Below, piece after piece: positions 10,901 through 35,400 of a stretch of 64,000 nucleotides of DNA. The stretch is from a virus. Under the pieces are notes generated by a model. It searched no databases, had not been told where the DNA came from, and saw only the letters and a list, made by a program, of their open reading frames with translations. Location of the stretch: positions 53,602 to 117,601 of the IMG/VR virus record IMGVR_UViG_3300027861_002706; one strand, given 5' to 3'. Every line of letters begins with the position of its first letter. Position 1 is the first letter of the stretch. Made by a program: the position numbers and the translations under genes.

Positions 10901-13900
10901 AGATAAGTCAAACCCTTGCCAACCAAAATAGTTAGATTCCATAAATGCATCGCCCCAGCTAGCATTGTCTCCTTCGATCTCAGATATGAAACCTACAGTA
11001 GTTTCTGAACCGAGTATCCTTTGTATATTACTATTCTCTTGTTCGTATGAGAATATGACATTTTCAGCGCTACCAGGTCCACCAGGTCTATATGGATTCA
11101 CCCGAATTTTTTTGCCTAAGTGATATGGACCAGACACAGGGCTGTCTGTTGGATCATTGTCGATACCAAGCAATATGTAATTTATTATACTGATAAAACC
11201 AACATGCTTATCGTAGCCTCCATACGCGAATTCTGGCCACCAATGTTTCATCATGTCCAAGAAGTCCTCTTCTATAAATCCTCCGAAATCAGTTTGTAGT
11301 TCAGACTGAAATCCCTGAGCAATAATTTCTACTATTTGTCCTGCTTTAACCTCTGCGATTGTTCCAGTAAATACTGTTTTTAGCGCGGCCAGATTATTCC
11401 CATATCCCATCTTGACTACTATATGAATACCTGGTCTAAGCATAAGCGTCTTAATAAATTTTTCGCCTGAGTCATCATCTACTAATTTAGGATCCGAATT
11501 ATTATAGAAAGAGGTGCTAGATAAAGTCCCACCAAAATTAGCTAGCTTCATTGTACATATATCATTATCATATATATGTGAAGAGATTGAGCACTCGAGT
11601 ATCTCCTTATAGCCATGATAGTCGTCTTTTTGGTAATCCCGTTTTCGATCTTCTTCAACAAAGTACAGTCTTGCAGTAGGAAATGACTTCAACAAAGATT
11701 CTGTTAAATCAGGCATATGGGATAATTGCTGCTCGCCCATCTTTGAATACTGATTTTCTCCATTAATGGGTACACTTATTCCGCTACCAGGTTGATAGTA
11801 TGTGGGAGTTTGAACATACTCCATTTTACTACCTTCATAGGCGTTCTTTTCTGGATTAAAGATTAGGCGGAGAGCCACTCGACCTGGATCGCTATTGTTA
11901 CCAGTCATAATAAACTCTATAACTGGATATTTATTTTTAACTGCTCCATAAAGCTGTTTTGCAAACTCAGCATGCGCTCTCTCATCAGTCCCTAGAATCA
12001 GCGATAATTCATTCACTACGTCCCCATTCTCGAGTATAACACTGGAACCCTCGGAGTTTAGTGATTCTTGATCAACTAGAGCCGCGCCAGCGGCCATTTC
12101 CGCTGGGTTTTTTATTGCGTTAAATAATTTCCCCAATGTCTCCTTACTGAAGGTATCTGTCTCCGGTCCATCACCAGTCTGTCCTGGCTCTTCATTGATA
12201 TTTTTTAGTATCGTTAGTCCGTTTAGAGGGAGAGTTATAACTCCTGCGCCTGTTTTATGTCGTGGAGCAATCCCGTAGCCTTCATTTCGTGCTTCATAGT
12301 TTTGATAATCACTGATCATCAACATCTTATCTCTATTTCTATGATAAAAGATGTCGGGGTCTATATAGCTACTAGCTCGCGCAGATACGGTACTGGCTAT
12401 ATCCTGTGTAGTCATCTTCATTAAATCAACAAATGGAATAGATGGGGTGATCCCATAGTCGCCACACTTTGGTGCGAATGCTTCCATTAAAGCATTAAAT
12501 ATAACTTCAGCTTTTTCGGGACTTTCTGCTTTGCTTATCTCGGAAGAAAACAATTCGCTATAAGTAGGTAGATACATATCTGAATATAAGTCTATCTCTT
12601 TAGTATTAAACTGCTCAACTTCCTCTTCTATCATTTCGATGTCAGACATATTTATTTCTGCCTTATTGGCGATACCATATATCTTTGAGCCTGCTTCATC
12701 TCTAAGGTAATTAAATTGCCATAGCCCTTTAAATTTTGCGACTAATTCTATCAATATGCTAAGAGAATTCTGCATGGACTCTCTGCTAGCGAATACGCGC
12801 CCTTGCTTTCCTAGAGTATATTTGTTATTTATTATACATTGAAAAATAGCATCCCATAGATCTTTGGGAATCATCTTGCCGCGCTTATGGAAAATATCTA
12901 ATATACTATTTATATCATTAAGGTCTTCAGGAAGCTTTACTGACCAGAGGGTATCTCCGGTGTCCGGAAATTCTGTGTCGAGATTGTCAAAGAGTACCCC
13001 TTCTCTTACTCCATAATATGAATGCCCTTTAGGCCCCGACTCTATATCAACATCATGCCTCTCCATAGGATTTTTGACATGTGTGACTGGTGATTCCTGG
13101 TCTTTTCCCAGGGAGAGTATTCCCGCAAGCCAATTCACCTGGAAAACTCCTTGTTGGTGGCTTGGACCTGCTTTACTTCCACCCCCCCTCTTATACGCAT
13201 TGTCTATCTCAAACCATCGACGAAACTCTTCTGAGTTCCCCTCCTGCTCTCTGAGTGGATCTCCTGTCTCGATCTCTGTCCATTTCAATCCAAATACTGA
13301 AGCATAATTCGATTCTTTGTCAGCGCGCAATGCTCCATGGACTAACCTAAGCAGACTTTTATATACTTCCTTATGGGTACTAAGACCAGAGTCTATCAAT
13401 ACTAATTCCTCTAGATCCCGATATATATCACCGGTAAGGAGTCGACCGGTTCTTTTCAGGGCGTACTGATAGATTATGCCCATAAAAATAGGCTGATAAT
13501 ATGTATCAGCTGCATTCGCTGACTCTGGGGCTAACACTGTACTGAATTTACCTAGGTCATCTGTTAGACCTAAAACGCGCATTAAGCTATCTAGCCTGTC
13601 CATATCATTTGCAGTTACCTTATCCCTGATTGAACTCGAAGACTCGTCCCCATTCTCACCTGGTCCAGTGTTGCGCTCCCACCATACTTTGTATAGCTTA
13701 TAGAAATATTCCCAGACTGCTTCAAGAGGTTTGGTAGATACTGCCCCTTTCTCAAGGACTAGTTTCTCCGTATCATGGCTTTGTGTATTTTCCACTAATG
13801 TGAGTATAAGCCGATACAGATCAGGAGAGTCTGGATCGGATTCTATTGTTACAGATTGCGGCGAGATTTTATTCACACCAAGAGAATTTATAAGCTGATT

Positions 13901-15436
13901 TTCTATCCATCCGAAAGAGTTAAATACTGTTTGAGAAGCTTCAGCAGATACTAGCTTCGCTTTCATCGCCATGAAGTCAGCAATAATTTTTTTATTTCTG
14001 ACTGCGAAGATAAGTTGGAACGAGTTTGAGTTTAAACCCATATACTGAATCATAGGAAATTTTGAGCCCATTAAAGGAATGTCAATTGATCTTGTATTAA
14101 ATGTACCAGAGATCTTTTCTAGAACCAATGGACTACCTTCGTAGCCATTGGTGTATCTCGGGTTAGTAGTATCAAAGTCTATGATTCCACCGAATATATC
14201 CCAATATGTTATTCTTAGATCATTGCTACCTATGGGAGTTATATTACCAGATTTACTTCGTTCTCCTGCTAAGGCTGCTATGGTTACATCTATCTCTTTT
14301 TTAATTCTATTGGACGCCTGGCTAACATATTCCATGCCCCAGTGACACTCGCTAGGATCGAGTGTAGGGCTGCCTTCTTTGTCCCGGTATAGAATAGTGC
14401 CAAAAGGGAACGCTGGAGAGCTCATTATCCCAAAACTAAATCGACCCAGTATGGCCCCTGGCATATCATGCATTGTCTGCATGCTTGCGCTTTTAAAACA
14501 GACCGGGACAGGAAATTTAGGACCACCATTGTCTTGTCCGCCTGAATCTAGGTCTTTGAGAAGATTTGTATTATTCTCAGTCGACTTATTATCATTAAGT
14601 ATATTCTTCATATGTTTTACTCCCTGAACAACTTCAGGGTGATTTTCAGTGAATAGGCCCAGGATATCATCGTAGGTATTATCGAGATCAAGAGCCTCGA
14701 GCATCCGATCAAATCTATTTTTCTCAGTATCGCCTTTACCTCCAATTACTTTTAATGCTGCTACGTCTCCGATCATATCGTATAAAGCAGGGTAGGCGTA
14801 CTGGGAGACAAAAGCCATGCATAAGGCAGAAGAATATATAGAGTTCATTGGCATAAACTTAAACATATTATATAGATTTATAAAGCTGGGATAATCTCTT
14901 TCTGTAGATGAGAACACCTCGAAATTGGGGAATATAATATCTATAGAGACCGTATGCTTTGACTTGCTATTTGCCATCATTCCCGATGACTTGGATCTTG
15001 CGACCGGCACAGGTGTATTTAATAAGTGCTCTTGTATATTGATAGAGCTTGGAATGATATAAGGAGAAGAAGACATCCCAGAAGACTCAATTATTTTATA
15101 GAATCCTATTTGAGTAATATCTTCATTCTGGAAACGCAGGTCATCAAAAATTTGTCGCTTAGTGGCTAGTATGCCTTTAAGTATCTTCTGTCCTGTTTCT
15201 GGCAAAGGCGTGGGCGCGCTTGGATTCTCTAACTGCCAGTTAAAAAGTTTCGACTTGTATTTTGCTTTCTGATCCTCTGGTATCGTCTTACTGATATCTA
15301 TATCTTTTAGCGCGCCGAATAATATTTCATTATGCTTATCGAGATCTATAATACTTGTACTCATGAATTCGATTGGACTTCTACCGACCGATTCTAATAC
15401 TGTTTCGAGGGTTAGTATATCGCTAGTGGTAGGCAT
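7994..15436 (-). CDS. Giant baseplate hub protein (about 2480 aa)
   Basis: A very large hub-like protein. Around residue 455 the segment IPLMGSKFPMIQYMG resembles domains of tail-tip proteins. Around 1335, LRPGIHIVVKMGYGNN followed by FTGTIAEVKAGQIVEIIAQGF matches the gp27/gpD-type hub beta-barrel pattern. Near 2090, GRNIKPYDSVRIVD and a strand ending SGWTTTVVPVGL look like a second hub barrel. The C-terminal 300 residues are hydrophobic and Ala/Gly-rich (about 2170-2220 and 2320-2365), possibly membrane-active. I chose ATG 15436, one base after the upstream stop (TAATATG); an in-frame ATG at 15502 would overlap the previous gene by 65 bases. Ordinary hubs are 350-1000 residues, so this is a multidomain fusion. 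Confidence 0.7.
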   Translation of the reverse strand: MPTTSDILTLETVLESVGRSPIEFMSTSIIDLDKHNEILFGALKDIDISKTIPEDQKAKYKSKLFNWQLENPSAPTPLPETGQKILKGILATKRQIFDDLRFQNEDITQIGFYKIIESSGMSSSPYIIPSSINIQEHLLNTPVPVARSKSSGMMANSKSKHTVSIDIIFPNFEVFSSTERDYPSFINLYNMFKFMPMNSIYSSALCMAFVSQYAYPALYDMIGDVAALKVIGGKGDTEKNRFDRMLEALDLDNTYDDILGLFTENHPEVVQGVKHMKNILNDNKSTENNTNLLKDLDSGGQDNGGPKFPVPVCFKSASMQTMHDMPGAILGRFSFGIMSSPAFPFGTILYRDKEGSPTLDPSECHWGMEYVSQASNRIKKEIDVTIAALAGERSKSGNITPIGSNDLRITYWDIFGGIIDFDTTNPRYTNGYEGSPLVLEKISGTFNTRSIDIPLMGSKFPMIQYMGLNSNSFQLIFAVRNKKIIADFMAMKAKLVSAEASQTVFNSFGWIENQLINSLGVNKISPQSVTIESDPDSPDLYRLILTLVENTQSHDTEKLVLEKGAVSTKPLEAVWEYFYKLYKVWWERNTGPGENGDESSSSIRDKVTANDMDRLDSLMRVLGLTDDLGKFSTVLAPESANAADTYYQPIFMGIIYQYALKRTGRLLTGDIYRDLEELVLIDSGLSTHKEVYKSLLRLVHGALRADKESNYASVFGLKWTEIETGDPLREQEGNSEEFRRWFEIDNAYKRGGGSKAGPSHQQGVFQVNWLAGILSLGKDQESPVTHVKNPMERHDVDIESGPKGHSYYGVREGVLFDNLDTEFPDTGDTLWSVKLPEDLNDINSILDIFHKRGKMIPKDLWDAIFQCIINNKYTLGKQGRVFASRESMQNSLSILIELVAKFKGLWQFNYLRDEAGSKIYGIANKAEINMSDIEMIEEEVEQFNTKEIDLYSDMYLPTYSELFSSEISKAESPEKAEVIFNALMEAFAPKCGDYGITPSIPFVDLMKMTTQDIASTVSARASSYIDPDIFYHRNRDKMLMISDYQNYEARNEGYGIAPRHKTGAGVITLPLNGLTILKNINEEPGQTGDGPETDTFSKETLGKLFNAIKNPAEMAAGAALVDQESLNSEGSSVILENGDVVNELSLILGTDERAHAEFAKQLYGAVKNKYPVIEFIMTGNNSDPGRVALRLIFNPEKNAYEGSKMEYVQTPTYYQPGSGISVPINGENQYSKMGEQQLSHMPDLTESLLKSFPTARLYFVEEDRKRDYQKDDYHGYKEILECSISSHIYDNDICTMKLANFGGTLSSTSFYNNSDPKLVDDDSGEKFIKTLMLRPGIHIVVKMGYGNNLAALKTVFTGTIAEVKAGQIVEIIAQGFQSELQTDFGGFIEEDFLDMMKHWWPEFAYGGYDKHVGFISIINYILLGIDNDPTDSPVSGPYHLGKKIRVNPYRPGGPGSAENVIFSYEQENSNIQRILGSETTVGFISEIEGDNASWGDAFMESNYFGWQGFDLSRNVYNCVGNYAEITSTEVANEWLITNAPAIDGIREVVRYMPNFIATVVPYEGDATLFVGDPCGPYQYREATKEESEYVARYNAQTSLKTQANDFRKLGKYRILAHRINHISDKISKRITRYNRIKLGEIAAVEKSDIHTNAYQLYGASYNAGAEVTVHPTAPFSQADGGFKELEDLVVNTLFRPISDEPYLSDDVHANLLAIFLNLDTSKLTEADFTKLATASKAIAKIRLNSKNVLNTTNWNSLYNFGGNSFKPNPLYTSISLSALLNNTLEVNSTTISGNAVHHAGQRLDFWPLLISNESDFGLFKSTSKEEGAAVEVNLDASWQVNSTEQIAIVPFLTSTFMDTSRTDRKISIFKNLMSKREELSTSFARNPAAGNSLAVDYIVKTLMEYKQALQLATKLLNPIGLDGEERDNDVLQDIMNSKDDTSEMLPFTHKLFRDHHVVSSDHDLIANNVVATQSDMWSAVSLRVPINTVNETAGWGDWGPTNYGIEEGGINKSAGVFQIDSDQEFGIWPRKNSVGMNYAGLYAGPEDILETFTEINATTPNLALQVNNFRLAQGLSKMYRGNLIMIGRNIKPYDSVRIVDNVNNIHGEIMAERVIQNYSSTSGWTTTVVPVGLTRVNSFLGTYNAGQAERWMYSFANGKTFMGVMDTITVAALFGSIFTGGITSGVWFTLKTILTSGARLAGAGVVVGARVAQRAVWRNWATTGFRNVLRRGYRYGQNVRINRANRRLAEGVARAPLKKMALQPGESGYAPYSLSDPLISAGRAIFGGGTSSSQGLGAGLFGHLGARAEAMLTREQIRLIAAGALPATATAAETAAYTAAISARNAAIGSIAGAGITAGARAIWLNVVYGRLMLRGGSSVMDEYLNPVISQQTVIDANEGDVFSAGAHRIDGSIPVYLPAKIKLLRYNNTVFSAGLRAIDVASSNPHGIDNIMEQARYLWADFIASQGEAPDILDQFEEG

Positions 15437-15437
15437 A

Positions 15438-18400
15438 TTAGAATACCGAGTCCATTCTATCTCTGAGGTCTGTGGCGATTTCGCTTCGAGCCATTGTACC
15501 ATTTAACTCAGATCTAAATGAACCCTGAATCTTTGGAACGTACCCATTATGAAGCGCATATTGGTTCGTCATGCCTCTAAAATCTGCTGGCGCATTCATC
15601 TTACCCGATACATTGAGTCTGCTTCTTTTCCCTTCGGATCTAGTGATACGAGCTATTCTGGTATTAGGCATTGCATTCGGATTAAATGTCGGGTCATTTG
15701 GAGTTGACATCACTGGAACTGGAGGTAATGTTCCCGAAGAGTTATACATAGATACCGGTACATTGCCGGGTGAGAATCTATCTAACGTAGATCGGACCGC
15801 CTCTATCCCTGCGAGGCCTCCTATTACCGCAGCAGCAGGCTTAAAGAACTTTGTTCTACTTATATTCTGGAAGAATTCGCCGCTCAACATACCAGACCTA
15901 GACGCGTTCGAGCTGACGCTTGCTCCACCTACCCTAGCATTGTCTGGGCCGTAGTCGGCTATATTCACATTATTCTGCCGCATCCTAGTCATTGTTTCAT
16001 GAAACTCAGCAGATAGAACTTCGTTGAGGCCTGCGCCACTTGTATCCATCGCTGCTAATCCTTGGAAGTCGGCCATAGTCAATGAAGCAATACCAGACGC
16101 GCCAAAGACATTATCGTTAACTAGTCCGCCTATTACTGAACTAAGGTTTCTGACTACACCCTCGAATGGCATTCCTAGTCCGGTTCCCCTGGTCCCTACT
16201 TGTAACTCTTGGGCCATCACTTCTATAAACATCATTCGTTTTGCAAGATTGTGTGCAAGTTGTCTCATCTGTTCGTCATTACCGGAGCCACTCAGCTTTT
16301 GTAATATACTTAATGTTTGTGGCTCCATTTCATGGAGCTTTCGGAACAAACCATCTGTCCCGGGTTCTATGATCTCTGCTGCCCTTAACAAGTTATTAGA
16401 TACTTGATCGATAAGATCCCCAGCTTTAGTCCCACTCCTGCCTTCTATCAGGTCATACATGAACCCCATGCTGCCGTGGTCCATATCAGATCTGGCCTGA
16501 GAGGAACCCGCCTTCAATGCGTTAAGGATAAGCTCTGCTGGTTCCTGCCCAGAAACACCGTGTGCAGCCTTTTTGAGGAACATATACTTTATCAAGTTCC
16601 GCGCATCTGTATAATGATATGTTGAAGCAGTACGAGTAGGCCCACCTGCCCCGGCCACGCTCTCTGTAAAGATGCCGCTAGCCTTACCTAAAAATTTACC
16701 CAGGCGATCTATTCCCGCATCGTCTAACCTGGCTTCAAGGTTAGTCCTTAACAGACTTTGACCCTCACCGCTAGCCTGCAAGTCTATTAACTGTGTAACC
16801 ATATAGTCGACATAAGATCTAGCTCTGAAGTGCCCCTCGACAATAGGAGTAGAATGCCCATGGCCAGCTATTTTTATCAATGACTCGAAGGTATGCTGTC
16901 TTACAGTTGCCTCTGACGTCATATCTGCGGTCTGAGATATAAGCTTATTGACATCTCCATAATTAAAACTAGTCTGCCCAGCTAGGCCTAAGCTCCTCGC
17001 CATTTCATTATCTGGACTACCTTTAAGATTACTAAGTATGCCATCCATCATTTCTATTTGTCCTTGATGGATACCCCTCATAGTGGAATCGTCCATACTA
17101 GCTAGTCTAAATAGATTGATAGCATCTTTGTCAAGGTCGCCTTCAGCTGCAAACTCAATCAGCATATTATTAAGATATGCTGTATGCTTGAACTCAAAAT
17201 CATCGACTATATCTGCAGAAGCGAAAGCTGTATCCTTCAGCAATACAGTCTGAAGCGCAAACATTTGGCGTCCGCCTGCAGCAGGTTCTCTTACTCCAGT
17301 AGTATAGTGCTTCCCAGCCCATGCCTTTTCGACTAGCTTGTCTAGTGCACCATCATCCATTCCTGGCGTAAAGTGCATGGACCTGAATGCTTTTTCGGTC
17401 ATACCAACCTGGAATTTGCCAAGACTGCTATGAGTCTGTAGCCGCATTCTTGCGCCAGATTGTATCCCTGCAGCACCTATCTCTGATGAATAGAATAAGC
17501 CTTGTTTGGCCATTGTATTAGCGGCCATTACTTGATAAAGCTTATCTAGTTTTTTTCCTATATCGGATGTTTCAGCAAGCCGGTTATCTGCTGAGCTATC
17601 CCTGAGTGTCTCCACGCTTTCTAATATATCCAGATACATTGATTGAGCTTCTACCTTGGCGCTTTGTCCAGAGCCTAGCTTGGCAGCCGCATCATCGGCT
17701 AGCTTCTCAAATTGCCTCCCTCCTTGTGAGACTCTTACAAAGCCTTGCTCTTCAATGAATTGCATAGTTTTTGCGGAGGGGACAAGCATTGGCCCATGTT
17801 CACCTTGGATCAAGAATGCTTGATCTGAGATTTTGGCCACACCACCCTCACTGGAAACTAGTCCGAGCAGGCTTTTGCCAATATCTTCAAGGTTCACTTT
17901 ACCAGAGGCACCACGTTTTCTCAGTTGATTGATACCATACTCGGATTCAATACCTCCAGCTGCAAGTTTTGGCCTAAATCGCTTAGGCCCTATCTCTCCA
18001 CTCCCGTAAGCCTCCCCCTCTCCTTTAAATTTAAGCCGAGATACATCTCCAGTTTTGAGATCTCCATCAGCGCCTATCTTTCTCAGAGCCTCAAATCCGA
18101 AGCTCGTCTCTTTGAAGTGCCTCATCTGCTGATAGATAAGACTCATCTCATGATCTTTGGCGAATATTGCTGGATTCGCTTCGCTCAGAGCGTTAAAGAT
18201 TAGTCCCTTTTTCTCACTAATCTGCTTCTGATGGAATCGCTGATTAGAATAAGGCTGGTTAGTGTCGGGATTTATATATTTTCCATCACGTTTTTTGAGA
18301 AGCTCGCCAGTTTTGGGATCTCTATCTGGATGCATTCTTTGCCCGTGAGCAAAGTCAACAGACTCTGCAAGCATCATTAGATCTCTTTGTTTTATACTGA

Positions 18401-21095
18401 GTGCATTCCTGCCGAAAGAACCCATAGGTTCTTCCGCTCTTGTTCCTACCTCCGCTGCGAGAGATGCCATCATATATTGCTTACCTACATCGAGATTTTT
18501 AGTACCGATAACCCCCATTCTTGCGAGTGTCTGATTAAGCGAGCCTGCTTGTTCCCTTAATGCAGCCTCGGCTTGTTCTTGCGTATGAGCTGGTAACTGT
18601 TTTAATATCTCGTGGACATCAACTTCATGGAATGTCTTTTCTATTAGTTCCTTGAATAGAAGAGAATCTTTTCCTCCGGCGGCCTCATGTAGGTGCTTCA
18701 TGAACTGCTCGTTGGTTACACGTTCTAACTTGCTCCCCAGGCCGTGGATCTGTGTAGTTATCCCACTACCTATTATCTCTTGGTTAGAAGTTCCGCCCAT
18801 TACGTTTACTAATCGCTGAGTAGCAACTTCGCTCCCAGTCTCTGTGATAATATGTGCAAGGTTCCTGAGCAGTGTTTCGTTAAAGCCGAAGTCAAATCCC
18901 TCTGCAACTCCCTTCATTGCGTCTGAACTCCACCGGCCAGAACCGGTTTTCGTCCTATCCATATCCTTAATTCCCTTAACGGAAATTCCTAGATCTCCCA
19001 TTACAAAATGTTGTCCCCCAGATGAATCTATTCCTGTGAGCTGTCCTACGATAGCTTGCACTGCGGTAGGTCCAACAACCTGAGATGTACTAACCCTCTG
19101 GCTACCTACCATATGTCCTGCACTAACACTAGTACGTGCGGGTGCCCTTGTAGTCCTATGCGGCCCTTCCGCCATGATTAGTTCCAGCTGCCCAGTTCCA
19201 GGAATTAATCTATATCCGGTGACATATGTATGATCCGGATCCATTCCTCGCTGCTTAACAATATTCATCATATCGTTAGCATGCCTGAGGTCTTTCACCA
19301 TCACATCTTCAGATCGAGCCACCCCTTGTCCAATTACTGCTTTATCTATACCAGCAGGTTGTACGTCGAACCCTACCGCGGAAATAGATCTTCTAACTTT
19401 ACGGTCTGCTGTAACCTGCAAGTCATATTCAAGAGCTTTTAGCTGGATCGGACTACCAAAATTTACCTTTTGATCGCCTGCGACTTTGCTGGTCATCGAC
19501 TGTTGATGCTGTCCAATTGCATCGACTAAATCATTACGCAGGAATCCTAAAAATTCTTGAGTCCCATCCTCTAAAATCTGGAGCTCTTTGAGATTGATTT
19601 TATGGGATACGGTACGTCTAGACATACCAGTCATAGGATCAAGATCTAGCTGCTTCACTAGCTCGCTAGACATCACTACACCAGAGTCGCCAAAAATTGC
19701 TTTGTTTAATACGGGGTCTGCAAACTGTAGTCCTAACGCCCTTATTCCAAAAGCTACGTCGTCAGAGATGCTCGCACCCCCACGTGCACTTCTGATTTCG
19801 TGCTTTAATAATTCGTTAGTCTCACTACTGAAACCCATTATCTCTGCTACAGCTGTAGGCAATTCTTTAATATCTCTTAGGACAATCGGGGCCCTGGACA
19901 GATGAAATTGCCTGCCTTTTTCGAACGTTTCCTGTCCGGGTAATACAGTAAGGTTTTTAACATCCTCAATAGTTCCTTTGATATATACTCTCTGCTTACC
20001 CCTACTACCATCTGCGAGGTTGGGCCTGAATGCAGATTCTGCGCTTTGTGGAGTCCATGCAAAATTGAAATTCTTGAGTCTTTCACTAAGAGGATCAATA
20101 CCTAGCGCAGATGATCCTTCGGGGACTCCACGTTTAGTAATCCTCTCTATATGATCTGTTACGGCTTGTTGCGCAGTATTCAGCTCTCTGCGCATTTCTC
20201 CCGAATTAAATCTTTCTGCATGGGTATGAGGATCATATCCAGTAATCAGTATCTGCCTTAGTCTGTCTTCCTCTAGCATGAGTTTGAACAGGTCGGAATC
20301 CTGACTCACTTCTAGCATTATTTGGTTTCTGGCCCCGAGAAGATGCCTACCTAGCTTAGGCTGGCCAGAGTACGACATGGGGTCAATCATTCCTGCGCTA
20401 TTTTTAGTACGCATCTCGAACGGGAGTCTATTGTCGAATAAGTCCTCTGTAGCCCCAATCACTTGATTTATAGTCTTATTTAATTTGCTAAAATCAGACT
20501 GATCCTTCATTACTGTATTGATTTCTCGATATACTGTTTCAGAAAAACTTGTAGGTTTTGTCAGACGATCGTTTCCTCCGATAGTTCCAACACCAGCAGG
20601 AACGCTATATGTACTACCTCCTTTGAACATATACTCATTCGCGCTCTGGCTAACTCTCCCAGGAAAATCCGGATTCATATCATCTGCGAATAGAGGTATG
20701 TGCACAGCCTTTTTACCTTGGCCATGAGGAGTAAACACAAGTGAGCCACCCCTGTGAACTAGCGTGCCTTCATTGCTACCTGCTATACCTGTTATTAACT
20801 GGCTAAGTCCCTCGCTCTGGGAGCCAGTCTTATATACATCTGGTAAATTATCTATACTACTAATTGTTTTCCCAGGTAGACTCAACTTGACCTTGGAGAA
20901 CAGATCTTCTTGAGTGGTGCCTGTCGAGGCTCCTATGGCCAGTGCTGCTGCTAGGTTTGCTTTAGCGGTGTGGCTAATTCCACCACGCAGAGGAGGGGTT
21001 TCACCGAAATGAATATCGACTACATCTCTTTGAAATACCTTTATTGCATCTTGTCCCTCACTTGAGGCGGATCCAGGTGTGGGGGTGCTGGCCAT
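15438..21095 (-). CDS. Giant virion protein, possible degenerate RNA polymerase-like core (1885 aa)
   Basis: No confident family. The protein is long, mixed alpha/beta and probably packaged, given its place between the tape-measure position and the hub. At residues 1320-1324 it has D-L-D-K-D inside AEGDLDKDAINLFRL, resembling the DxDGD metal-binding loop of the RNA polymerase beta-prime double-psi barrel. Upstream, SGARMRL and VGMTEKAF (roughly 1210-1235) and VREPAAGGRQMF (about 1270) fall where phage single-chain polymerases have comparable strands. The central Gly is Lys here, so activity is uncertain. A hydrophobic segment lies near 1755. Bases 19778-19822 are the source-like copy of a 45-bp duplication. 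It could instead be a tape-measure or internal core protein. Confidence 0.6.
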   Translation of the reverse strand: MASTPTPGSASSEGQDAIKVFQRDVVDIHFGETPPLRGGISHTAKANLAAALAIGASTGTTQEDLFSKVKLSLPGKTISSIDNLPDVYKTGSQSEGLSQLITGIAGSNEGTLVHRGGSLVFTPHGQGKKAVHIPLFADDMNPDFPGRVSQSANEYMFKGGSTYSVPAGVGTIGGNDRLTKPTSFSETVYREINTVMKDQSDFSKLNKTINQVIGATEDLFDNRLPFEMRTKNSAGMIDPMSYSGQPKLGRHLLGARNQIMLEVSQDSDLFKLMLEEDRLRQILITGYDPHTHAERFNSGEMRRELNTAQQAVTDHIERITKRGVPEGSSALGIDPLSERLKNFNFAWTPQSAESAFRPNLADGSRGKQRVYIKGTIEDVKNLTVLPGQETFEKGRQFHLSRAPIVLRDIKELPTAVAEIMGFSSETNELLKHEIRSARGGASISDDVAFGIRALGLQFADPVLNKAIFGDSGVVMSSELVKQLDLDPMTGMSRRTVSHKINLKELQILEDGTQEFLGFLRNDLVDAIGQHQQSMTSKVAGDQKVNFGSPIQLKALEYDLQVTADRKVRRSISAVGFDVQPAGIDKAVIGQGVARSEDVMVKDLRHANDMMNIVKQRGMDPDHTYVTGYRLIPGTGQLELIMAEGPHRTTRAPARTSVSAGHMVGSQRVSTSQVVGPTAVQAIVGQLTGIDSSGGQHFVMGDLGISVKGIKDMDRTKTGSGRWSSDAMKGVAEGFDFGFNETLLRNLAHIITETGSEVATQRLVNVMGGTSNQEIIGSGITTQIHGLGSKLERVTNEQFMKHLHEAAGGKDSLLFKELIEKTFHEVDVHEILKQLPAHTQEQAEAALREQAGSLNQTLARMGVIGTKNLDVGKQYMMASLAAEVGTRAEEPMGSFGRNALSIKQRDLMMLAESVDFAHGQRMHPDRDPKTGELLKKRDGKYINPDTNQPYSNQRFHQKQISEKKGLIFNALSEANPAIFAKDHEMSLIYQQMRHFKETSFGFEALRKIGADGDLKTGDVSRLKFKGEGEAYGSGEIGPKRFRPKLAAGGIESEYGINQLRKRGASGKVNLEDIGKSLLGLVSSEGGVAKISDQAFLIQGEHGPMLVPSAKTMQFIEEQGFVRVSQGGRQFEKLADDAAAKLGSGQSAKVEAQSMYLDILESVETLRDSSADNRLAETSDIGKKLDKLYQVMAANTMAKQGLFYSSEIGAAGIQSGARMRLQTHSSLGKFQVGMTEKAFRSMHFTPGMDDGALDKLVEKAWAGKHYTTGVREPAAGGRQMFALQTVLLKDTAFASADIVDDFEFKHTAYLNNMLIEFAAEGDLDKDAINLFRLASMDDSTMRGIHQGQIEMMDGILSNLKGSPDNEMARSLGLAGQTSFNYGDVNKLISQTADMTSEATVRQHTFESLIKIAGHGHSTPIVEGHFRARSYVDYMVTQLIDLQASGEGQSLLRTNLEARLDDAGIDRLGKFLGKASGIFTESVAGAGGPTRTASTYHYTDARNLIKYMFLKKAAHGVSGQEPAELILNALKAGSSQARSDMDHGSMGFMYDLIEGRSGTKAGDLIDQVSNNLLRAAEIIEPGTDGLFRKLHEMEPQTLSILQKLSGSGNDEQMRQLAHNLAKRMMFIEVMAQELQVGTRGTGLGMPFEGVVRNLSSVIGGLVNDNVFGASGIASLTMADFQGLAAMDTSGAGLNEVLSAEFHETMTRMRQNNVNIADYGPDNARVGGASVSSNASRSGMLSGEFFQNISRTKFFKPAAAVIGGLAGIEAVRSTLDRFSPGNVPVSMYNSSGTLPPVPVMSTPNDPTFNPNAMPNTRIARITRSEGKRSRLNVSGKMNAPADFRGMTNQYALHNGYVPKIQGSFRSELNGTMARSEIATDLRDRMDSVF
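19778..19822. repeat. 45-bp direct repeat, copy inside the 1885-aa gene
   Basis: Identical for 45 consecutive bases to 27738-27782. Here it is in frame within the giant gene and encodes about TNELLKHEIRSARGG. Because the coding context is normal here, this copy looks like the source. Confidence 0.9.
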
Positions 21096-25722: not shown

Positions 25723-26397
25723 CTACTCCGTAGATTGTGCTGAATTCCAACCTTCAGGGGATTGCGGTACTCGGTAGGAATCCGGCATCATTTTGCCCGG
25801 TAACCCCCTATGCATCTGCTTTTTCTGTTTTCTTACTTCTTTAGCAACTTGTTTTTGAGCATACTCTTCATCTAGAAACATTCTTAAATCTATCGGCTGT
25901 TCTAATGAAGTTTCTGCAATCGCAAAAAGCTTAGTCAATTCGGCTAATGTCATGTCCTCTAGCTCACATGGTTTAATCGCATGAAAATGCCGGGTTATGA
26001 CAGTCATCATCACTGAATCTAACGAGTTAATTGCTACTCTAGCCTCATTGAAATAGTCCGCTATCCCCTCATTGGAGCTAAATCCAGATATATCTATTAT
26101 ACATTTACTTAGCATCTCAAAACACATACATGGTAAATCGTATAGCGGATTCTTATCTATATTAATCCAGTTAAATTCTGGCCAGATTATACAAGATTGC
26201 AGTATCTGCTCTGTAGGATCACATCCTAAATCGATGTCTTGCTGCAGAAATAAAAACTCCTGGCGAGTCATAGGTCTAATCAATATATTAGACACCTTAG
26301 ACTCGCCAGGCTGACCAGAGAGATCAATTAGGAAGATTTCTTTGCAGGCTCTCCTTAGCCTAGGTATCTCTTCTTTAAGTCGTGGATCGAGAAACAC
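25723..26397 (-). CDS. Tail assembly chaperone-position protein (224 aa)
   Basis: A soluble, mostly helical protein. Features: an N-terminal RLRRACKEIFLIDLSGQPG, a middle with several Cys residues (CIIWPEFNWINIDKN, CMCFEMLSKCIID), and a basic C-terminal tail (KEVRKQKKQMHRG). It lies three bases after the 159-aa gene and just upstream of the first giant gene, the place normally held by the pair of tail assembly chaperones (gpG/gpGT-like) or by gp26-28-type baseplate proteins. The two genes have separate starts (TAGGATG junction) and I found no clear slippery heptamer, so a programmed frameshift is not supported. Confidence 0.55.
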   Translation of the reverse strand: MFLDPRLKEEIPRLRRACKEIFLIDLSGQPGESKVSNILIRPMTRQEFLFLQQDIDLGCDPTEQILQSCIIWPEFNWINIDKNPLYDLPCMCFEMLSKCIIDISGFSSNEGIADYFNEARVAINSLDSVMMTVITRHFHAIKPCELEDMTLAELTKLFAIAETSLEQPIDLRMFLDEEYAQKQVAKEVRKQKKQMHRGLPGKMMPDSYRVPQSPEGWNSAQSTE

Positions 26398-26400
26398 ATC

Positions 26401-26880
26401 CTAAACCTTAATTGGAGTAGGTGCACTTTGGTATCCTGAAATCGCAAGAATGGAATCATGAAGCGTAGTAGCTACACCTGAGGCCTTGCTCCTTAATTCA
26501 TCTAGTCCTAGCGGAGGATGAACAGTGCCCTGGGCAGCAATAGCTTCTTCACTCATCATGTTGAGTGTAGCTCTAACTCCTTCAGGATTCGCAGAATCTG
26601 CAGAAGCTTCAACTTCTTTAGCCATGGCCTCTGCCTGTGTTTGGACCAAGTTACGGTACTCTCGGCGGTTTAAGCTTCTAATGATGAACCATTCATCAGC
26701 ACAATTAACAACATTGACATTGCTGAATTGTTTTTTGGCGGCTTGGATGATCGAGATAAACTCTTCATCCCATTCAAGCTCCTTAGCTTGCTGCCACGTA
26801 ATCTCTAACCCTGGAATTTTGTCTTCCATATTTTTGAGCTTGGGTTCAGCCTTACTCTTTTTCTCTACTACAGTTTCCAA
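26401..26880 (-). CDS. Tail assembly chaperone-position protein (159 aa)
   Basis: A small acidic-to-neutral helical protein: Lys/Glu-rich N-terminus (VEKKSKAEPKLKNMEDKIPG), a central WDEEFISIIQAAKKQF, then EWFIIRSLNRREYRNLVQTQAEAM, a pattern of the type 'x-W-x-x-R-x-L-x-R-x-E-Y' often seen in phage tail chaperones that bind the tape measure. It lies between the third tube-like gene (14 bases away) and the 224-aa gene (3 bases). I assign a chaperone role by position and general composition only. The protein has no membrane segment and no signal peptide. Confidence 0.55.
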   Translation of the reverse strand: METVVEKKSKAEPKLKNMEDKIPGLEITWQQAKELEWDEEFISIIQAAKKQFSNVNVVNCADEWFIIRSLNRREYRNLVQTQAEAMAKEVEASADSANPEGVRATLNMMSEEAIAAQGTVHPPLGLDELRSKASGVATTLHDSILAISGYQSAPTPIKV

Positions 26881-26894
26881 TGTCTCTCCTTAAT

Positions 26895-27695
26895 CTAACC
26901 ACCTGAGACACTATTGCTCAGTGTGTTATTTGCTTGATGGCCATCAGCCATTCTACGTGCTGGAGCATTCCTTTCAACTATTTCTTTTGCGAAAAAGCTA
27001 TAAATCTCATAAATAGGAGATCCAGAAGAAGATACATCTCCACCACCAGTGGCTGAAGCAGATATTACTTGAGATTGACCAACTATATACGCATCTTTTA
27101 TAATAGTTTCTATATGATCTTCAGACGTTATACTACCATATGCTACGAGTATATCAAATGTACGTTTTTGTTTATATGCTTCGTTAGTTGATCTTCTAAG
27201 GTATTCAACAGCCGCCATTGCTTCGGGGGTTCTAGATAAAGCTCCGGAACTGAAGTTACCAAGCATACTGCGTAGAGAATTTAATCGCGATCTAGAACTG
27301 CCTGGTCTGTTATCTGCATCAAAACCCTTTAGTATGTCATCCCCATAATCTTTGGCAGCTATTTGAGCTAGCCATTTTACTCTTTCAGTAGAATCTTTAG
27401 AAAAGAATTCTTCCGCATCATTAACTGCTTGTCTATGCTCCTTAAGATCTGTTTGGCCTTGTTTAGTGAACTCTGCTATTGCAGTGGCTAGATATCCTGG
27501 ATGTCTATAATTTATGACTAACCTCCCCGTAATTATCTTTCTGCCATTACTAACTGCAGAGAAGGTATCATCAGCCCATCCATATAGTGGAGTCTTGGAA
27601 TCCCTTGCATCCCAGTCAACTCTAAATGCATCGGATAGCCTATACCCTCCGATATAGATACCGACGTTACATGGAGTGTAGTATCTATCTGGCAT
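26895..27695 (-). CDS. Third tail tube-like paralogue (266 aa)
   Basis: The N-terminal half shares the tube-fold pattern of the two genes upstream: PLYGWADDTFSAVSNGRKIITGRLVINY aligns with the PLYTMGSANPRSFSRGKRG...GSLIF stretch of the 223-aa tube protein (charged turn, Gly-Arg/Lys, then two strands). The C-terminal half has a helical insertion (about residues 85-185) and a Gly/Ser-rich tail, so it is more divergent and may be a tube initiator, terminator or distal-tail adaptor. The ribosome site AAAGGA lies 9 bases before ATG 27695. The 69-base gap upstream contains most of the 45-bp duplicated sequence. Confidence 0.55.
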   Translation of the reverse strand: MPDRYYTPCNVGIYIGGYRLSDAFRVDWDARDSKTPLYGWADDTFSAVSNGRKIITGRLVINYRHPGYLATAIAEFTKQGQTDLKEHRQAVNDAEEFFSKDSTERVKWLAQIAAKDYGDDILKGFDADNRPGSSRSRLNSLRSMLGNFSSGALSRTPEAMAAVEYLRRSTNEAYKQKRTFDILVAYGSITSEDHIETIIKDAYIVGQSQVISASATGGGDVSSSGSPIYEIYSFFAKEIVERNAPARRMADGHQANNTLSNSVSGG

Positions 27696-27737
27696 TTAAT
27701 AGAATCCTTTAAGCATAATTGTTCCCGCCGTATCTAG

Positions 27738-27782
27738 CCCCACGTGCACTTCTGATTTCGTGCTTTAATAATTCGTTAGTCT
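27738..27782. repeat. 45-bp direct repeat, copy at the end of the tube-like gene
   Basis: The second exact copy, in the same orientation about 8 kb away. It provides the last codons and stop of the 262-aa tube-like gene and most of the 69-base gap after it, and is read in another frame from the copy at 19778-19822. Confidence 0.9.
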
Positions 27783-28553
27783 TCCCTGAAATCTAAGATT
27801 CGTCTCTAGCCAGGCTGGATCATACCCCTTCTCAAACAACGATGCAATATCGGTGTCATTCTCCTGACCATAAAATTTCATTATCTCTTTTCTTAATCTG
27901 TCTTTATCGCTTTCCCAGCCTGCGGCAGATAATGGGAAATACTGCTCAGCTACATATGTGTAAGTAGACTCTGTATATATATCGTCTATAGAGAAAGTGG
28001 TGCCGAAATTAGTCAGTGTAATATTATGTAAAATCGCACTTGATGTACCTCCAAGTTCATTGGAGGCCTGAAACACCATACTAAATTTAGGTATCTGATC
28101 AACAAATATAGTAGGCTCTCTTATCGGTTCTCCATCCGAATAAGACTTAGAAAGCATGTTAACAAATGCATCTCTGAGGCCTGCCGTAAATACCATTGAT
28201 CCAGCTATAGTCCTAGACCCACGAGCATAAGCAACAGGATTTGTTTCTCCTAATCTCCTGACCGGCATAACGCTTCTAGCAGATGAGACTGTGACAGTCT
28301 GTAGCTTATTCTCAATTTCTGAAAATCCTGGATCATCCGTAGTTTCATTATGAAGAGCTGGAATAGTTATTAAGCATAGAATATCAGACCCAGCATAAGA
28401 CAGAACATCTCTTTGGACAACTGGAGCTGTCCCCATCAAATCTACATTTGATGCAGCCTGAGCTAAGCGCTTTACACGCTTAGCTTCATCTACTTGAATC
28501 TTCTCATGTTGAGAAATTGCATATGCACGCATGTTACTTAAAATATCAGTCAT
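27765..28553 (-). CDS. Second tail tube-like paralogue (262 aa), C-terminus altered by a duplication
   Basis: A paralogue of the tube protein upstream: both contain an ARGSRTIAGSMVF / SRGKRGIAGSLIF motif and a late segment with SNELGG / ANEYGH followed by NFGTTFSIDDIYTE / NAGSGMSIDDITTD. It has an extra N-terminal region with a charged helix (ISQHEKIQVDEAKRVKRLAQ). The tube protein ends with NLRFNVPIANKDNPTG; here NLRFQGR is followed by LTNY and a stop. LTNY and the stop are encoded by the 45-bp sequence that is identical to part of the 1885-aa gene, so the C-terminus seems to have been replaced. Probably a second tube or tube-completion protein. Confidence 0.65.
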   Translation of the reverse strand: MTDILSNMRAYAISQHEKIQVDEAKRVKRLAQAASNVDLMGTAPVVQRDVLSYAGSDILCLITIPALHNETTDDPGFSEIENKLQTVTVSSARSVMPVRRLGETNPVAYARGSRTIAGSMVFTAGLRDAFVNMLSKSYSDGEPIREPTIFVDQIPKFSMVFQASNELGGTSSAILHNITLTNFGTTFSIDDIYTESTYTYVAEQYFPLSAAGWESDKDRLRKEIMKFYGQENDTDIASLFEKGYDPAWLETNLRFQGRLTNY

Positions 28554-28617: not shown

Positions 28618-29289
28618 TTAACCAGTAGGATTATCTTTATTTGCAATCGGTACATTGAACCGAAGATTGGCCTGGGCGTTCCAAGGTTCGACTTCCGTAG
28701 CAACGAAGGTACAGCTTTCGTCTGTAGTAATATCGTCGATAGACATACCACTACCAGCGTTCATTATCTCAACATTTTTAATCTGCATCCTGCATACATG
28801 TCCATATTCGTTAGCAGCAGATATGGTAATGTTGAACGGCGGTAATTGGTCATGATATGTCGCGCCAACAGATTCTAATCCTAGGAATTCCCTGAGGGCA
28901 ACTACATCATTAGGATTATTTCCTGTTGTTGATCCGAGCACCGGGTCTGTTATGTTAGCTGTACCAACCCGAGATTGAGAACCCATTTGGGATTTAGTCA
29001 GCTCAGTCTTCTTCATTATGACTCTAGACTCACCAGTTATATCTTGCCGAGAAACATCGAGCAAAGCCGACCTATCAAAGACCAAGAAGATTAGCGATCC
29101 TGCGATACCTCGCTTGCCCCTAGAGAAGGAGCGCGGGTTTGCGGATCCCATTGTGTAAAGCGGCGCTTTCTCCCTTGTAACCGTGTAAGAGACTCCTTGA
29201 ACCTCTCCTACGGTCACATTTCCGAATGTGACAATCATGTCAACACCGCTAAATGAATTGTATGTTTGTGTTACTGCTGATCCTGGCAT
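28618..29289 (-). CDS. Tail tube protein (223 aa)
   Basis: The likely major tube protein. The order sheath-then-tube and the size (about 220 residues) fit. The beta-barrel pattern MIVTFGNVTVGEVQGVSYTVTREKAPLYTM is typical of contractile-phage tubes, as is PPFNITISAANEYG with NAGSGMSIDDITT. Its start overlaps the sheath stop region by one base (29289), so both are coupled. It is followed by a strong GC hairpin (28566-28594) in the gap before the next gene, which could stabilise or shape the level of the tube mRNA. Tube assignment rests on order, length and pattern. Confidence 0.75.
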   Translation of the reverse strand: MPGSAVTQTYNSFSGVDMIVTFGNVTVGEVQGVSYTVTREKAPLYTMGSANPRSFSRGKRGIAGSLIFLVFDRSALLDVSRQDITGESRVIMKKTELTKSQMGSQSRVGTANITDPVLGSTTGNNPNDVVALREFLGLESVGATYHDQLPPFNITISAANEYGHVCRMQIKNVEIMNAGSGMSIDDITTDESCTFVATEVEPWNAQANLRFNVPIANKDNPTG

Positions 29290-30845
29290 TAGCCTATCCC
29301 CTCTCCCTTAGCTAGAGATATCGTAGTATTAATCGTAACCAACTCGAATGCAGGTACCATGCTCAAGTCAATCGTCACTTCTCCTAGAACCTGCTGATCT
29401 GGAGTAGATGATATTGCAAAGTCATAAGACTTTATTGCACCCTTCTTTAGTGCTCTCTGAAGATTTGTATCTATCGCACTTTCCAGTGCCGCGAGGAACG
29501 GTCCGCTAATCGGTTTGCCGATAAACGCCTCACCGGCATCTCTTATTATTTCACCCATTGCTTGAGTGGTTCTTATCGTAGTCACTCTAGTATAATCGGA
29601 TCTCGAGTTGATTCCAGCATTAAATGCTCCAGTTATCCCAGAAGTAATTACATAGCCAGCTGCTTTTTGAAGTAGTGCTACTATTCTATGTTGAAGCAGA
29701 GACCTAGCCTGAACTCCGCTGAGAGTTCTAGCTTGCCCAAGACCAGCAAGAGGCCTATTCGTTACACCGATATGGGGCTGAACTACAGTAAGCATTGCAG
29801 CGTACGAAGCAGCACCATTGCTGTTAACATAAGAAACAGTACCAGCGCCTTTTGCTACAGCAAACTTCTTCGCCTCAGTACCAAATGCTCTTGCTGTACC
29901 TCCGACTACACTAACATATGCACCAGCGTCTATTTTGTTTCCATCACCATCAGTAGCAGCAGTACCATCGGTATCATTCGGCTGCATTAAGCCTATGTAG
30001 TCTGTACTAGGCGCAGATGCATCAGTGGAGTTTAGAACTGATCCCTTAAGATACTTCACCCAACTAGATCCAGTGAATGATTCACCAGTATAGCTGGCAT
30101 TAGAAGCTCCTCCGTATACTGAAGTATCGCCGGCATCCTGTGTAAGATATTTTACATATTCATTAACAAGAGTAAGACTAGGCGTCATGAACCAGGCACC
30201 TGTAGTTGAAGTGAAGTCTGAGACAGCGGTAGCGCCGGCGTCTTTCCACGTGAGCTGTTTGGCCACATGTCCTATTGGAGTAACACCGATAACGCCGAAT
30301 GCGCTATTGCTCTCTTTTGTCAACTGATAGCAAAACTCTCCAAGTTGAGCAACAAAACTATTACCAACAAGACTATCGGTAGCTGCAGCATCAGTTGTAC
30401 CAGAGAAAGCTCCATCGGCATATGCTCCAGCGACATATACTATATCTACTTCATGATGCTGTAGCTTAGAATAGGTAGATGCTAGCTTGGTATACAGCCC
30501 AGACATGTGGTCACCTACATCTGTACCGGAGTAGGGTGTAATGACACCAGTGTCGGTTACTACTACTTCGATATTAGTAGTGCCGGCAGCTATTGCCTCT
30601 TCTATCGCAAGAGTGATTTCAGATGGCGAACCATCGGTTTGATTCCTCAAATTGCGCATAGCCACGCCAACATTATCTATCAGCAACGGCTCGTTCATCG
30701 GGATTATTCCCGGAGTTGCACCTTCGAAACCACCAATAATAGTTAACTTGGGTCCAGGATTAGGCGGAGCAATCCTGAGTCCAAAATCATTGATAGTAAC
30801 ATTGACAGTTGGTAGACTGTCAGTATTCGTAATTCCACTTACCAT
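29289..30845 (-). CDS. Contractile tail sheath protein (518 aa)
   Basis: The sheath surrounds the tube and contracts during injection. The C-terminal domain is diagnostic: RTTQAMGEIIRDAGEAFIGKP, SALESAIDTNLQRALKKGAI-like helix, then SSTPDQQVLGEVTIDLSMVP and the strand VTINTTISLA that interlocks neighbouring sheath subunits. The N-terminal domain (PTVNVTINDFGLRIAPPNPGPKLTIIGG) and the variable middle loops rich in Gly/Ser/Thr match other sheaths; the length of about 500 residues is usual. It lies directly upstream of the tube gene, as in other myoviruses. Confidence 0.85.
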   Translation of the reverse strand: MVSGITNTDSLPTVNVTINDFGLRIAPPNPGPKLTIIGGFEGATPGIIPMNEPLLIDNVGVAMRNLRNQTDGSPSEITLAIEEAIAAGTTNIEVVVTDTGVITPYSGTDVGDHMSGLYTKLASTYSKLQHHEVDIVYVAGAYADGAFSGTTDAAATDSLVGNSFVAQLGEFCYQLTKESNSAFGVIGVTPIGHVAKQLTWKDAGATAVSDFTSTTGAWFMTPSLTLVNEYVKYLTQDAGDTSVYGGASNASYTGESFTGSSWVKYLKGSVLNSTDASAPSTDYIGLMQPNDTDGTAATDGDGNKIDAGAYVSVVGGTARAFGTEAKKFAVAKGAGTVSYVNSNGAASYAAMLTVVQPHIGVTNRPLAGLGQARTLSGVQARSLLQHRIVALLQKAAGYVITSGITGAFNAGINSRSDYTRVTTIRTTQAMGEIIRDAGEAFIGKPISGPFLAALESAIDTNLQRALKKGAIKSYDFAISSTPDQQVLGEVTIDLSMVPAFELVTINTTISLAKGEGIG

Positions 30846-32489: not shown

Positions 32490-35400
32490 TTATCCATCTC
32501 CCCATAGATTATCGCTAGCATGCGTACCACCTATTTTATCAGACGCTGGCCTAGATATCTGTGTGTCGGTTGCCGATATCCTGGGATCTTTGTCGGATAT
32601 AGCACCTTGAGGTATACTGTCTTTTAGCGCAGGAACTAGTCTGACTATTACATCTAGACTTGAACTGATAGCAGAATCCAGGAAGATACGAGCACTATTA
32701 GTAAAGTCTAGGGATATTGCTGCGCTGGATAGCGCGCTAGACACCACATTGCCAACAATGGGAACTATCAGTCTGGCAGAAGTAACTCCTTCCGAAGAAA
32801 CCGATCCAGATATAAGTATAACTTTCTCTGCTCCAGCTATGATTATAGTCTCACTAGAAATTTGTCCAGATAGATCACTACTGAGTGATAGAGAAGCTGA
32901 AGTTACACTAGAGCCTGCAGTCTCTGCAGATAGAACCTTATCTCCTGTTTTAGACAGGCTTGAAGTAACAACACATTCTCCAACAGTAGTTCCGGAAACA
33001 CTTGATACAGTAGAAATAGTAGCAGTGCTAATTGCACTTCCTGTTGCAGTCGCAGATACACCGTGGATCAGGAGTGTACCGGCCTCGACTATAGCCTCAC
33101 TTGATATAGCTGATTCTAATCCTACACCTAGCTGCTGTTCTGAAGTAGCTACTGACTCACTCGAAATAGATCCGGAAACATAAGTCGCTACGCTAGTAGA
33201 ACTAGTAGAAACAGATACACTTACTATTGAAGCAGCAATAGCGTATGTAACGCTAACGTTACCAACAGATACTGCAGTACCTCTGATAGACCCTACGCTT
33301 TCAGAAGTAGGTAATGCTGCTGAAACTACTGCCAAACCTGAAGAAGATGCACTCAAGTCAGCGACGAGGTTGAGCACACCTGTAACAACGCTAGTCGAAG
33401 TAACAGTCGCAGTGAGAGCCGTATCCACGAGTGTGGCACTTATCGCAGTTCCCTCTGTGACTATGGAGCCCCTCAGATCGGTGACCACGCTAAGAGTACT
33501 GGCGGTAACGCTAGTGGAGCTGACAGCTGCGACAAGAGTTGTGTCCACTAGTGTGGCGCTTACTGTGGTTCCCTCTGTGATTATCGAACCTCTGAGGTCG
33601 GTAACCACGCTTATACTACTGCTAGAACTAGAAGATCCGATAGTACTGGCAACGACGAAAGCATCTGCTGTTACAGCAGAAGTAGCAACTGTCAGTCCTG
33701 TAATATCAGCAACTACAACATAATCTACGACTGTAGCCAGCTGAGTAACTGTAGTTCCTATGGCGGACCCAGAAAACTCTGCTACTCCTGATTCTGTTAG
33801 TGCTGCTGAAATATCACATATTCCTACAGATTCAGCTACGCAGCTATACCCCATAGTTAGCGTAGATGTAGCAACAGCTGTACCTGCAGATGCTCCAACA
33901 GAAGAGTAGGAGGCAACAGCGCTGCCAGTAGCAGTAGCTTCTCCAGAAGCAGTGGCAGCCAGGTCGGTAACTATACTAAGGGCACTGGTAGTAACAGCGG
34001 TAGAGGTTGTAGTTGCAGTAAGAGCTGTGACCACGCTGAGTGCACTAGCGGTAACGCTGGTAGAACTAACAGCTGCGACAAGAGTTGTGTCTACCAGTGT
34101 GGCACTCACTGTGGTGCCCTCTGTGATTATGGAGCCTCTGAGGTCGGTAACCACGCTGAGTGCGCTGGTAATAACAGAGGTGGAGGATGTGGTTGCAACG
34201 AGGTCAGTAACCAGCAGCGTGGCACTCACTGTGGTGCCCTCTGTGATTATGGAGCCTCTGAGGTCGGTGACCACGCTGAGTGCGCTGGTAACAACAGAGG
34301 TGGAGGATGTGGTTGCAACGAGGTCAGTAACTACGCTGAGTGCGCTGGTAACAACAGAGGTGGAGGATGTGGTTGCAGCAACATACGTTATAACTTCTAT
34401 CGCAGAAGATATACTCACAGATCCGATAGTAGATCCAGTAAGTTGCCTGTCCATAGCTTTAGTGAAGTTAGATGAAATTATTGTCCTACTGATAAGCTCA
34501 GCTGCAAGATCAGTAACAACACTAATACTACTTTCAGCAACAGAGGTAGAACTAATAGACGCAATAAGATCAGTGACTACCAGTGTAGCACTTACCGTGG
34601 TTCCCTCAGTTACGATGGAGCCTCGAAGGTCGGTGACTACGCTGAGCGCACTGGTGGTGACAGAGGTAGAAGTTGTGGTTGCAACAAGAGTTGTGTCTAC
34701 CAGTGTGGCACTCACTGTGGTTCCCTCAGTGACTATCGAGCCTCTGAGATCGGTAACCACGCTGAGTGCGCTAGTGGTAACGCTGGTGGAAGTTGTGGTT
34801 GCAACGAGGTCAGTGACCACACTGAGTGCGCTGGTGGTGACGCTAGTAGAGGTAGTGGTTGCAACAAGGTCGGTAACCACGCTGAGGGTGCTGGTCGTAA
34901 CGCTCGTGGAGGTCGTGGTTGCGACAAGATCGGTAACCACGCTAAGGCTACTAGTGGTAACACCTGTAGCAGAGATTGAAGCAGCGAGATCGGTGATAAC
35001 CGAGATGCTGCTTTCTGTAACCGCCGGCAGAGAAATTGAAGCTCTTAGATCCGTAACAACAGATATATTGCTTGCAGCAATACCTTCAATGACTATGGAA
35101 GCAGCTAGCTGTCTGGCAACCTGAACATCGCTGGAGGCAACCGTATCTGACTGAATCGCCCCTATTACATCTGTAACTACTCCAGCATTACTGGATATAA
35201 CACTATCGGAAACTACCGATCCTCTTACATCTGTAACAACACTAATGACTCCCTGGCTGTCAGCTACACCAATGATAGTGCCTGTAGCAAGATGGTCGAC
35301 GCCAGCAGCAGCAGAGACTGCCTTTTCCCATCTCGCCTTTAATGGACCTATGTTCCAGTCGCCGTCCTTGCCAGCAGCAAAAATCCTAAATTGATATGTT

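Follow-up and report, generated by a model that had tools for sequence, protein, structure and literature searches.

The window analysed here, a stretch of 64,000 nucleotides that corresponds to positions 53602-117601 of a 117,601-bp virus record, contains the structural module of a contractile-tailed phage, in which terminase, portal, major head protein and sheath were recognised. Three tube-like genes follow consecutively after the sheath gene, and the 3' end of the second one, the target gene of this study, holds a segment of 45 bp that is also found inside a giant gene. The features that are relevant for the analysis are listed below in window coordinates.

29289-30845, minus strand: tail sheath gene, situated upstream of the three tube genes (PHROG 16991 tail sheath, 1.6e-40)
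28618-29289, minus strand: tube 1, a paralogue that ends NLRFNVPIANKDNPTG (PHROG 9206, 4.2e-49; 45% identical to the tail tube of KLEB27-3)
27765-28553, minus strand: tube 2, the tail-tube-like target gene, 262 aa (PHROG 9206, 3.5e-19; alignments; position in the three-tube cassette)
27786-27791, minus strand: TTTCAG close to where the copy begins on the left, with a second occurrence at 19828-19833 to the left of the source (a weak match)
27738-27782, minus strand: 45-bp copy at the target, AGACTAACGAATTATTAAAGCACGAAATCAGAAGTGCACGTGGGG (exact repeat, without a match in six related viral records)
27696-27737, minus strand: probably the former 3' end of tube 2, no longer translated (reading LDTAGTIMLKGFY and TAA in frame, abutting the ATG of tube 3)
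26895-27695, minus strand: tube 3, the next paralogue downstream, with an undamaged start codon (homologues with 62-64% identity in the corresponding position of the relatives L003 and L005)
19778-19822, minus strand: source copy, encoding TNELLKHEIRSARGG within the giant gene (relatives align through it)
15438-21095, minus strand: giant gene for a virion-region protein of 1885 aa, which holds the source (homologues in 3 of 6 related records)

The tail-tube-like nature of tube 2, proposed in a preliminary description made from the sequence, was borne out by its homology to the annotated tube proteins of PHROG 9206 and by its place in the cassette after the sheath. An AlphaFold model of the protein was of low confidence (mean pLDDT of 50.9), with the lowest values in the C-terminal tail. 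The same gene order, a sheath followed by three annotated tail tube genes with homologous proteins, is present in Bacillus phage KLEB27-3 (OM634661 gp26-28), and in Moorella phage MTATph1 (OR602862) the sheath is likewise followed by a tube-like cassette coding for homologous proteins. Unlike the gene studied here, tube 2 of both phages ends shortly past the core, without such an insertion. Relatives of tube 3 were searched for in bacterial genomes and none were found. Tube 1 is far better conserved than tube 2, which has additional residues at the N-terminus and a tail at the C-terminus, both of variable length among its homologues in L003, L005, L016 and L017.

A repeat search showed that 19778-19822 and 27738-27782 are identical at 45/45 positions, in direct orientation and 7,960 bp apart. 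The flanks of the two copies share 28% identity over 120 positions, as expected for random sequences, and the 45-mer occurs only twice in the complete record. In the giant gene it is read as TNELLKHEIRSARGG, while in tube 2 it is read in another frame and provides RLTNY-stop, the remaining 27 bases being intergenic. Both the exact duplication and the two reading frames had been reported in the preliminary description and were confirmed. The next longest exact dispersed repeat of the record measures 19 bp (copies more than 1.5 kb apart, local tandem arrays left out), and the longest repeat calculated to arise by chance at this genome size is about 17 bp. Therefore, the 45-bp repeat is not due to chance; it is unique within its genome and far beyond chance expectation. 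No exact dispersed repeats of at least 18 bp were detected in the 47-60 kb examined of each of G001, G003 and G004, the three contigs most closely related to the record, or in 90 kb of MTATph1, and the longest ones in G006 and KLEB27-3 had 19-20 bp. As a separate observation, 100 kb of phage T4 (NC_000866) contained a dispersed exact repeat of 40 bp at 27030 and 70646, within a repeated element, followed in length by one of 28 bp; dispersed repeats of similar size thus also occur in well-sequenced phages.

The giant protein, for which no PHROG or Pfam match and no named family was found, aligns unbroken through the source in L003 and L005, the latter having VTTALRNEIRSLDPGA for ETNELLKHEIRSARGG, and in the more distant L023 it aligns at the source with one short gap just upstream. 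At the target, both flanks are syntenic with those of the relatives, none of which has the 45-bp segment there. Since the relatives align across the source and lack the segment at the target, the giant gene must be the donor, which has remained intact, and tube 2 carries an exact copy of it (45/45). Allowing up to 3 mismatches, the 45-mer was absent from all six related viral records. A core 26-mer of the copy gave no match in collections of viral and genome contigs, in which near-identical records may be hidden, and the target region gave none among annotated phages.

According to the preliminary description, the copy replaces the end of tube 2. That the end of the gene is altered was corroborated, and the copy brings in an in-frame TAA; however, the probable old C-terminus, LDTAGTIMLKGFY-stop, is still there, in frame just after the copy. 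The length of the copy is 3 x 15 bases, and when the frame of tube 2 is resumed past it, 13 codons follow whose TAA lies directly against the ATG of tube 3. Within this genome, the codon score of the 13 codons falls in the 51st percentile of coding stretches and in the 98th of stretches that are open but off-frame. About 6% of shuffles had their stop at such a late position. Joined without the copy, the flanks read ...LETNLRFQGLDTAGTIMLKGFY-stop (also given as ...SLFEKGYDPAWLETNLRFQGLDTAGTIMLKGFY-stop). Since the copy has a length of 15 codons and the frame after it is coding-like and ends at the next ATG, a pure in-frame insertion is favoured. Judging from this reconstruction of the earlier sequence, it is more likely that the copy was inserted into tube 2 than that it was substituted for part of it, and the gene probably lacks 13 of its former codons, with RLTNY as an addition.

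The loss of the end had originally been argued from the NLRF motif shared with the paralogue, and this argument failed. NLRF stands directly after the core in tube 1 and about 45 residues past the core in tube 2, the alignment does not pair the two motifs, and L003, a relative with 72% identity, has no NLRF at the position of tube 2. The motif of tube 1 was therefore rejected as the homologue of that of tube 2, the two not being positionally homologous. In the closest of the relatives compared, with a DNA identity of 82% over the core, the tail aligns poorly at the target site. A match of 10 bases, CAATTATGCT, links window positions 27712-27721 (minus strand) with L003:10741-10750 in the tube 2 tail of L003, in a different frame (uncorrected p of 0.026); it would point, weakly, to a different old end.

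Taken as a real event, a single intragenomic templated copy into tube 2 with insertion as its preferred form is the explanation that we favour, with a probability of roughly 0.72. This value overlaps with that given to a real substitution, partly a variant of the same event, in which the 45 bp took the place of part of the former C-terminus, the missing piece being either as long as the copy or not. A process with intragenomic donors is known from bacteria and the tails of L003 and L005 are longer, both of which would suit a substitution, and replacement of a multiple of three bases is a possible form of the event; nevertheless, we regard substitution as rather doubtful, because a pure insertion already yields an open, coding-like frame that ends at the next ATG.

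The record is an assembled virus contig, the identity is exact and the copy was present in no other record searched, all of which would also be expected if a chimeric molecule in the library or a wrongly filled metagenome gap had placed the 45 bases at the target. We consider such an artefact unlikely, since contigs wrongly joined through a common k-mer have their flanks exchanged and do not receive a second copy between syntenic ones; with both flanks of both copies syntenic with the relatives, the assembly would have to be wrong at two junctions 45 bp apart. The remainder, in frame and coding-like, fits a real insertion, though it would also be left by an artefact at this position. The position of the copy at a gene junction and its unmutated state might instead suggest that it has been retained for a function, such as that of a regulatory or RNA element between tube 2 and tube 3. 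However, the copy has no stable fold (z of -0.57), searches within the 45 bp found no hairpin, RNA family (Rfam), promoter or terminator, the copy does not include AAAGGA, the putative ribosome-binding site of tube 3, and leaves this site and the start codon of tube 3 untouched, and the relatives lack the copy, all of which makes a role of this kind extremely improbable.

In the favoured explanation, one mutational event would have placed a copy of 45 bp from the giant gene in the 3' end of tube 2 and left the source intact, most likely as an in-frame templated insertion while the DNA was being replicated or a break was being repaired. A strand end may have switched to the giant gene, been extended on it by 45 nt and then returned, or a short single-stranded fragment may have been captured; as to the enzymatic route, template switch or fragment capture, we infer only. 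The TAA of the insert would terminate tube 2 early, leaving 13 old codons untranslated and adding RLTNY. TTTCAG is a match of 6 bases at a nearly equal offset in both left flanks, with a chance of 2.3% per flank, and no microhomology was found at the right junction. Such weak junction homology is in keeping with a templated insertion that needs little homology, whether a template was switched briefly or a short strand was captured. A tandem relation of the two target flanks was also considered and was not significant (p of 0.33). Neither a target-site duplication nor inverted repeats nor a third copy were found, and the flanks were without significant similarity. A mobile element is therefore disfavoured, and a transposon or integrase-type insertion was rejected for its lack of inverted repeats and the presence of two copies only.

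In bacteria, substitutions whose donor lies in the same genome are known as SPDIR, in which resident bases are replaced at microhomologies in chromosomes, and which is reportedly the subject of work by Harms et al. in 2016. The full name, short-patch double illegitimate recombination, appears in a passage of PMC7192050. By analogy, SPDIR would be the nearest described process in bacteria, as here too tens of bases from the same genome appear at an unrelated site with the donor intact and with little or no homology. It differs in that SPDIR substitutes resident bases at microhomologies of bacterial chromosomes, whereas in this phage genome an insertion is favoured and microhomology is weak: it consists of TTTCAG near the left junction only (p of about 0.02 per flank), and as regards replaced bases the evidence from the frame leans to insertion. 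Short-range DNA polymerase template switching and templated insertions have been described in great apes (PMC7954356), where, as in our case, a local sequence duplicates another stretch, which is attributed to a brief excursion to a second template. That process is short-range, while the template of the 45 bp is 8 kb away, and the enzymes differ.

From the exact identity, the preliminary description had derived either a recent event or an assembly artefact. The 0/45 differences between the copies only limit their divergence to <6.4% (95%), while fourfold sites of the tube genes differ by 33-37% from those of L003. Comparison of the two values indicates that the event is well younger than the split from L003. 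The sequence data therefore place it after the separation from the nearest known relative, and in this sense the claim stands, although the event need not be very recent.

The conserved core of tube 2 ends near residue 208 and is followed by a variable tail, of about 54 aa in this phage, some 75 in L003, far more than 100 in L005, less than 40 in L012/L016 and about a dozen in KLEB27-3 and MTATph1; in all of these and in L017, tail length and sequence past the core are different. Since the clipped codons are part of this tail, which is not the same in any two relatives and is not included in the conserved core, the effect of the clipping on the phage is, by inference only, probably near neutral. 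One might go further and suppose that the tail is a hotspot, where the C-terminus is rewritten time and again by short templated insertions taken from other genes of the phage, and that the 45-mer is the one event young enough to be still legible, an idea that we hold to be highly unlikely.

The event is a known kind of mutation and no new mechanism is shown by it. Its interest is that of a directional, single-step case of bounded age, in which unrelated DNA from elsewhere in the genome supplied a phage structural protein with a new end, an event usually blurred by divergence; templated insertion is one possible source of the variable tails of this tube protein.

Some other parts of the record deserve mention. 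Large tandem arrays are present in long ORFs at window positions 33349-34986 and 58810-60018 and at record positions 26300-26830, with repeat units of around 60-120 bp, 30-39 bp and 75 bp; the array at 33349-34986 is of a kind similar to those in L003 and L005. Outside the window, record positions 8695-19709 are occupied by a long cluster of sugar-nucleotide and glycosyltransferase genes near a primase-helicase gene, which includes a GDP-mannose dehydratase-like gene, epimerases, a DegT aminotransferase, several glycosyltransferases and an E1/TPP enzyme fragment and seems large for a phage. Finally, window positions 61224-63197 code for a ribonucleotide reductase, which according to its domain matches is of the B12-dependent type.
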